Assembly: GCA_947632515.1 (NCBI GenBank)
Contig: CANRPO010000013.1
Location: 23,124 to 87,123, forward strand
DNA from: an uncultured Lachnospiraceae bacterium
Lineage (GTDB): Bacteria > Bacillota > Clostridia > Lachnospirales > Lachnospiraceae
Direction: 5' to 3'
DNA length: 64,000 nucleotides
A program made the position numbers and the translations under genes. Shown here piece after piece: positions 46,431 to 63,869 of the stretch; within the stretch, counting starts at the first letter, position 1; each line of letters opens with the position of its first letter. A model generated the notes under the pieces. The model made no database searches and had not been told where the DNA came from. It saw nothing but the letters and a program-made list of their open reading frames with translations.

Positions 46431-46461
46431 GGTTCCCTCCTGTGAACTGTGGACATAGTAC

Positions 46462-46615
46462 GTTCACCCCCGCGCCATTCGCAAAACCGCCCCTCCGGGG
46501 CTCTTCGCCGCGCTGCGGCTGTTTTTGCTCATAAGCGGGCGCTCTCCTCGTCAATCTGCCGTTCGCCGGGCCTTCATGCAAGCATGGGTCTGTCTCCGTG
46601 GATCGACGGGTGAAC
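46462..46615 (-). promoter_or_regulatory. Candidate structured leader RNA or small repeat element upstream of prs
   Basis: On the + strand GTTCACCC (46462-46469) and GGGTGAAC (46608-46615) would close a large multi-branch structure. Inside it GCAAAA/TTTTGC (46481/46523) encloses two hairpins, GCCCC-TCC-GGGGC and GCCGC-GCT-GCGGC. A further hairpin CATGC-AA-GCATG lies at 46575. A 9-bp direct repeat GTGAACTGT flanks it at 46442 and 46610. Either a cis-regulatory RNA of prs or an inserted repeat. No known riboswitch was recognised. Confidence 0.45.
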
Positions 46616-46630
46616 TGTAATGACATTTAT

Positions 46631-46659
46631 TTTATAACATTACGCTAGTGACACGTCAA
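46631..46659 (-). promoter_or_regulatory. Predicted promoter for prs
   Basis: Read on the minus strand: TTGACG, 17 bases, TATAAA. It would give a transcript with a ~190-base 5' leader. Confidence 0.6.
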
Positions 46660-46714
46660 GAAATTTCTAGTAGAATGTAGATAGCGGTCAGACCGTGTGC
46701 GGGAGACAGGGATC

Positions 46715-63562: not shown

Positions 63563-63583
63563 AGAATACAGTTAAGAGCATAA

Positions 63584-63869
63584 AGGCGATGAAGAGAACA
63601 AGTAGCGGATCACGGAACGCACAGAAAGCAGCCGGCTGATGAGAGGCGCGCGGGAAGTCCTCTGTGAATACATCTTGGAGCCGCGCGGAAGAACGGGTCT
63701 CCCCAAGTAGGCCGCGACGCGGAATGCGCGTTACAGCAGGAGAGTATGCGGGCGTATATACCGACAGGGTGGAGCGTACTCAGCGAGGCAGACAGTGTGA
63801 GCTGTCTGTGAAATTAGGTGGTACCACGAGACTATGGCCTCGTCCTATGGATATAGGACGGGGCTTTTT
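63584..63869 (+). promoter_or_regulatory. T-box leader, probable tyrosine specifier, controlling an off-window synthetase gene
   Basis: Contains the T-box sequence AGGTGGTACCACG at 63816-63828. A stem-I region has the specifier-loop pattern GTGAA-TAC-ATCTTGGAG (TAC at 63669-63671). The pattern implies tRNA-Tyr. TGGT in the bulge would pair with an ACCA 3' end, fitting tRNA-Tyr with discriminator A. The antiterminator is followed by a terminator. Downstream gene expected to be tyrS; ATA (Ile) or ACA (Thr) readings of the loop are less likely. Confidence 0.85.
63837..63869 (+). terminator. T-box conditional terminator
   Basis: GCCTCGTCCTAT/ATAGGACGGGGC stem with 4-base loop and a T5 run. Part of the stem overlaps the antiterminator alternative. 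Confidence 0.9.

Follow-up and report, generated by a model that had tools for sequence, protein, structure and literature searches.

The PRPP synthetase gene prs of an uncultured Lachnospiraceae bacterium is separated from its predicted promoter by a leader of about 190 bases that contains several stems and hairpins. This leader raises the question of whether it is a regulatory RNA of prs or a mobile repeat inserted upstream of the gene; an initial annotation of the stretch analysed here (64,000 nucleotides, hereafter the window) had proposed both. We consider it about 93% probable that a non-autonomous mobile element (MITE), presumably moved by IS66, left a copy, now old and decayed, at window positions 46458-46621.

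Layout of the prs leader

The stems, hairpins, 9-bp repeat and promoter that were first described in the leader were all found in the sequence, and the features of the locus are listed in Table 1. The promoter comprises, on the minus strand, TTGACG (46659-46654), a 17-nt spacer and TATAAA (46636-46631). An 8-bp closing stem is formed by GTTCACCC (46462-46469) and GGGTGAAC (46608-46615), and an inner stem by GCAAAA (46528-46523) and TTTTGC (46486-46481); the two GC hairpins and the ATGCTTGCAT hairpin lie between the arms of the closing stem. The folding energy of the leader was -66.1 kcal/mol versus a shuffled mean of -64.1 kcal/mol (z = -0.44), and neither strand folded above chance against shuffles. 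Energy alone would therefore not support a claim of structure, which becomes significant only via covariation in relatives.

Table 1 Features of the prs leader and the MITE copy in the window
Feature	Position	Strand	Basis or remark
prs, PRPP synthetase, 397 aa	45237..46430	-	NF005299, 559.5 bits; PF13793/PF00156/PF14572
Shine-Dalgarno AGGAGGG of prs	46435..46441	-	Sequence; immediately downstream of the stub
ACAGTTCAC, putative left-end stub of a second, almost wholly deleted tandem copy	46442..46450	-	Comparison with G087
TATGTC, probable right remnant of the target-site duplication	46452..46457	-	6 of 8 bases
Right terminal inverted repeat, eroded, GGGTGAACGTAC	46458..46469	-	Sequence; stem with 46608-46615
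Entire MITE copy of the prs leader, with degenerate ends ATTACAGTTCACCC ... GGGGTGAACGTAC	46458..46621	-	R1 match; ends extended by comparison with intact copies
3' domain: GCGCC/GGCGC stem, GCAAAA/TTTTGC stem, GC hairpins 46519-46507 and 46501-46489	46472..46542	-	
5' hairpin arm, apex ATGCTTGCAT (46585-46576)	46549..46608	-	Richest in compensatory changes across the family
Left terminal inverted repeat ATTACAGTTCACCC	46608..46621	-	3 mismatches to the family consensus GTAACAGTTCAGCC
Left copy of the degraded target-site duplication, TAAATGTC	46622..46629	-	TATATGTC in G087; TAAATGTC also in element-free G061 at this position
Sigma-70 type prs promoter, TTGACG-17-TATAAA	46631..46659	-	Lies in a block that is conserved in many species of the genus

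The 9-bp direct repeat GTGAACTGT (46442-46450 and 46610-46618) had been thought to bracket the structure. Both copies exist, but they are not symmetric brackets because the real unit is 46458-46621: the copy at 46610-46618 lies inside its left end, and that at 46442-46450 lies outside it. Nor is the 9-bp repeat a target duplication; the degraded duplication is TAAATGTC / TATGTC. Its outer copy is best interpreted as an end stub left by a second tandem copy, because at that position the related species G087 carries another, partly deleted copy that begins CACAGCTCCCGTCAATC (L411). The right terminal inverted repeat (TIR) of the orthologous copy in G087 is GTGTGAACTGTAAG.

In the intergenic region between prs and a divergent radical SAM/DUF512 gene (window 46622-46680), the block TTGACGTGTCACTA is letter-identical in many species of the genus. 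It covers the prs -35 element and the spacer and contains the inverted repeat TGAC-GT-GTCA, for which reason it may be an operator for both genes.

Distribution, ends and target duplications of the family

A covariance model (R1) was built from 14 full copies from elsewhere, with the prs copy excluded, and it matched the held-out window copy at 46618-46460 on the minus strand with 95.8 bits (E = 7e-23). Seven dispersed copies were detected in the bacterium's own genome, a result that favours the mobile-repeat reading, and the genome search returned a second partial copy with 77% identity. R1 matches occurred in 55 of the 77 genomes of the genus (up to 32 copies each), in 68 of the 299 family genomes sampled and in 39 of 392 genomes of the order, eight of the latter being outside the family. 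Element-bearing records in the public collection are named as Lachnospiraceae, Acetatifactor, Roseburia and Coprococcus MAGs. The element core was found at unrelated sites in the genus, whereas the outer leader resembled prs leaders only. The copies adjoin many unrelated genes in both orientations; in L002 and L018, for example, the copy follows a type IV pilus ATPase-like gene. One own-genome copy (L002:1360-1700), which comes after a gene resembling a pilus retraction ATPase, seems to be nested among repeats of a 186-bp family.

Rfam searches of the window and canonical copies, at gathering and relaxed thresholds, gave chance-level matches only and none above the cut-off. Clostridiales-1 RNA (RF01699), likewise a clostridial structured RNA, aligned weakly over its full length to the prs leader; it scored 12.5 bits, where the cut-off is 48, and did not match the own genome, so the leader is not a member. 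The element core was absent from the viral contigs scanned and the element from the plasmids scanned, and ten 'phage' records from human faeces, unannotated and perhaps consisting of host DNA, contained partial copies. These results show a large MITE family across gut Lachnospirales that is undescribed as far as the Rfam and literature searches made here extend, with related families sharing its ends.

Young copies, which are near-identical and occur in other genera, are about 164 bp long, carry 14-bp perfect TIRs (GTAACAGTTCAGCC...GGCTGAACTGTTAC) and 8-bp target duplications, and contain no gene. Nine near-identical copies in genome G322 have the exact ends GTAACAGTTCAGCC ... GGCTGAACTGTTAC followed by 8-bp duplications, including acattttt, tatttcat, tttaataa, aatttctg, ataagaaa and attttaga. 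Flanks duplicated at 8/8 positions were observed in 10 of 144 distinct copies, versus 0.03 expected, and in 8 of the 20 copies with intact ends. The family is therefore short, non-coding and dispersed in many copies with TIRs and target-site duplication, as is characteristic of MITEs, and the element in the prs leader is assigned to this class because of this anatomy of the young copies. The degenerate ends of the window copy and its target duplication remnant of only 6 of 8 bases count against this reading. The proposal of a small mobile repeat with target duplication is supported by the multicopy relatives, the exact TIRs and 8-bp duplications of young copies and the existence of element-free prs leaders.

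The same TIR and 8-bp duplications bound several unrelated MITE families, whose lengths range from 72 to about 395 bp, and some of these occur in genome G022, which has no R1 copy; the ends are thus what matters for movement. At least four further families (72-162, 186, 188 and 221 bp, and composites to 395 bp; L345, L347, L348, L351, L352 and L353) share the TIR GTAACAGTTCAGCC and 8-bp duplications. The 6.1-Mb genome G022 holds 123 ends of the shared GTAACAGTTCAGCC type. Head-to-tail arrays of four and three copies, 3 nt apart, were present at L199:3001-3638 and L200:2001-2476, which shows that tandem amplification occurs. Upstream genes often take their stop codon from the element: of 120 copies, 32 had this codon within the left TIR, 17 of them precisely as the TAA of GTAAC, and 10 had it at the right end.

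Insertion history at prs and the likely mover

Seventy prs leaders from the genus were searched, and the element or its remnants were found in four, which belong to one clade of four species with different later deletions in each. R1 matched strongly in G000 and G087 and weakly in G005, whose leader retains the 5' hairpin; G018 keeps the left end only, as a left arm. The G087 leader contains a full copy and a second, internally deleted tandem copy. In the leader alignment, the insertion point after ...ATGTC was common to all four species, and element-free relatives such as G061 run from ...TAAATGTCA directly into a short leader. In G005 and G018, sister species that have lost most or all of the element, prs is 94-95% identical. 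Weak R1 matches (about 27 bits) on the opposite strand, beyond the prs promoter, were observed in two further species (L444:487-614 and L445:487-613).

The many dispersed copies, the near-identical young copies, their exact ends and the 8-bp duplications indicate that the gene-free element of about 164 bp was moved by a DDE transposase, acting in trans and duplicating 8 bp of target. To judge from the shared flanks, the four species probably inherited the insertion, at the prs transcription start or directly behind it, from a common ancestor; tandem duplication and trimming through different deletions in each species apparently came later. Since the promoter lies upstream of it, the element presumably forms the 5' leader of the prs transcript. 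The leader copy folds into a two-arm structure and is probably a tolerated spacer, and across the family compensatory mutation keeps the fold, with a bias to one strand as RNA.

The IS66 family is characterised by GTAA-type ends and 8-bp repeats (PMC11946415; PMC12888890), and the 5'-GTAA-type ends and 8-bp duplications of IS66 derivatives are present in the MITE family. The closest partner found, a decayed IS66-family element of 1,984 bp in L304 (genome G386, of the same taxonomic family), has the 16-bp TIR GTTACAGTTCACACCC at both ends, an 8/8 duplication (GTATTAGA) and a transposase fragment matching PF03050 (E = 2.9e-11). Its ends agree with the MITE consensus at 10 of the first 11 bases and with the G087 prs copy, at the right end, at 13 of 14; the left TIR of the window copy agrees with the IS66 end GTTACAGTTCACAC at 12 of 14 positions. 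Other IS66 elements in element-bearing genomes also show GTAA ends and 8/8 duplications (L278 and L382). IS66 transposases therefore likely move the MITE in trans, a reading based on the near-identical ends and 8/8 duplication of the L304 element. An autonomous element with exactly GTAACAGTTCAGCC ends was found neither by PF03050 searches in 63 genomes nor by TIR-pair scans of loci, and several copy-holding genomes have no detectable IS66 gene in these assemblies; for both reasons we infer the mover only. The MITE resembles the IS66 family in ends starting GTAA/GTTA and in 8-bp target duplications, but it lacks a transposase, its interior is not visibly related to the IS, and most IS66 ends are GTAAGCG or GTAAACG, unlike those of the MITE. 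A 1.4-kb TIR pair in G074:C4 was considered as a transposon and rejected, as ordinary-looking genes lie inside it and its flanks do not match.

Conservation of the fold and competing explanations

In the fold derived from 14 copies, the ends pair as a closing stem, the 5' hairpin (apex TGCTTGCA) is variable, and two GC hairpins belong to the 3' domain. Compensatory change, with both sides altered and pairing kept, was found in 24 of 55 pairs. None of 500 shuffles reached any of five covariation measures, and slid controls were 30-39% paired. In pairs found independently on both strands, the G-U:A-C ratios were 67:22 and 73:22, approximately 3:1 with kinship ignored, and the sense strand was more stable in 49 of 54 and 44 of 50 copies. 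The ratio was 92:23 in sense insertions versus 54:28 in antisense insertions, statistics that likewise ignore kinship. Orientation preference between co-directional genes was absent (45 sense versus 39 antisense, p = 0.59), so the family gives no sign of a general leader-regulator role. The one-strand G-U excess hints at selection on RNA, and strand-asymmetric structural covariation, which a cut-and-paste MITE does not require, suggests some RNA-level role. Most simply, this is a selfish element with transcripts that fold on themselves and are tolerated for that reason. That the MITE family bears a selected strand-specific RNA, with the transcript of one strand having to fold into the two-arm structure, for example as an insulated 3'/5' UTR module tolerated within host operons or as an RNA for its own spread, and perhaps a switch at prs, is a tentative idea that we consider rather doubtful.

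A prs-specific riboswitch or attenuator sensing PRPP, ATP or ppGpp would suit a structured element that lies in the 5' leader in sense orientation. It would also suit the mutually exclusive pairings of GUGAAC (46467-46462) with GUUCAC at 46615-46610 or at 46447-46442 near the Shine-Dalgarno sequence, two leader pairings of about -62.7 versus -66.6 kcal/mol. We find this explanation hardly credible: copies lie beside many unrelated genes in both orientations, 66 of the 70 genus prs leaders lack the element, the four related leaders differ by large deletions, the alternative pairing needs a stub whose form is seen in this species only, and no Rfam match exceeded the cut-off. Conservation in orthologous leaders and restriction to prs or related genes, both expected of a cis-regulatory RNA for prs, were absent, and this part of the initial annotation is contradicted by the many unrelated genomic copies and by the presence of the element or its remnants in only one four-species clade of the 70 leaders. 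A later co-option, by which the MITE would control the translation of prs or the stability of its mRNA, in this species alone or in its clade, could explain why it is full-length in G000 and G087 despite long decay, fills almost the whole 5' UTR and offers exclusive pairings close to the Shine-Dalgarno sequence. It is nonetheless unlikely, because G005 and G018 lost most or all of the element while their prs genes remain 94-95% identical.

The covariation, the G-U:A-C ratios of 67:22 and 73:22 and the greater stability of the sense strand (49/54 and 44/50) are also what a dispersed functional RNA family, an sRNA or cis element in its own right and not derived from a transposon, would display. 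Such a family would not account for exact TIRs, 8-bp target duplications, young multicopy bursts and the same TIR on unrelated MITEs, nor for the even orientation (45 versus 39, p = 0.59), and we judge it very improbable. A REP-type palindrome moved by a RAYT / Y1 (IS200-like) transposase would share the intergenic position and the palindromic, strand-biased fold. Y1 transposition is not known to make target duplications, and the long perfect TIRs and 8-bp duplications present here do not fit it. REPs are moreover given as 20-40 bp (PMC3733652), and this origin is the least plausible of all.

The MITE reading agrees with what is known of prokaryotic MITEs, which are short, gene-free and intergenic, with TIRs and target duplications, form stable folded transcripts and are moved in trans by an IS (PMC10969869). 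In the text of that review, Lachnospiraceae, Clostridia and IS66 are all absent and the present family is unmentioned, and no relevant account of a Lachnospiraceae MITE with such ends came up in a literature search. The bcr1-bcr3 repeats of Bacillus cereus are similar in being MITE-like, intergenic and often located in UTRs or intra-operon intergenic regions (PMC3446304); they differ in sequence, host and presumably mover, and homology is not claimed. The family is new, although MITEs as a kind are known, and its conserved structure is unusually clear. What looked like a PRPP riboswitch is now mapped as a MITE copy, and any structured leader of these genomes should be compared with the family before a riboswitch is called. 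The strand-biased covariation also makes it testable whether bacterial MITEs are selected for RNA folding and hence tolerated in operons.

Two further observations concern the gene and the window. A second PRPP synthetase, about 56% identical to that of the window, occurs in nearly every species of the genus (G000:C3:74881-76032), and a T-box leader is located at window 63580-63850 (RF00230, 97.6 bits).
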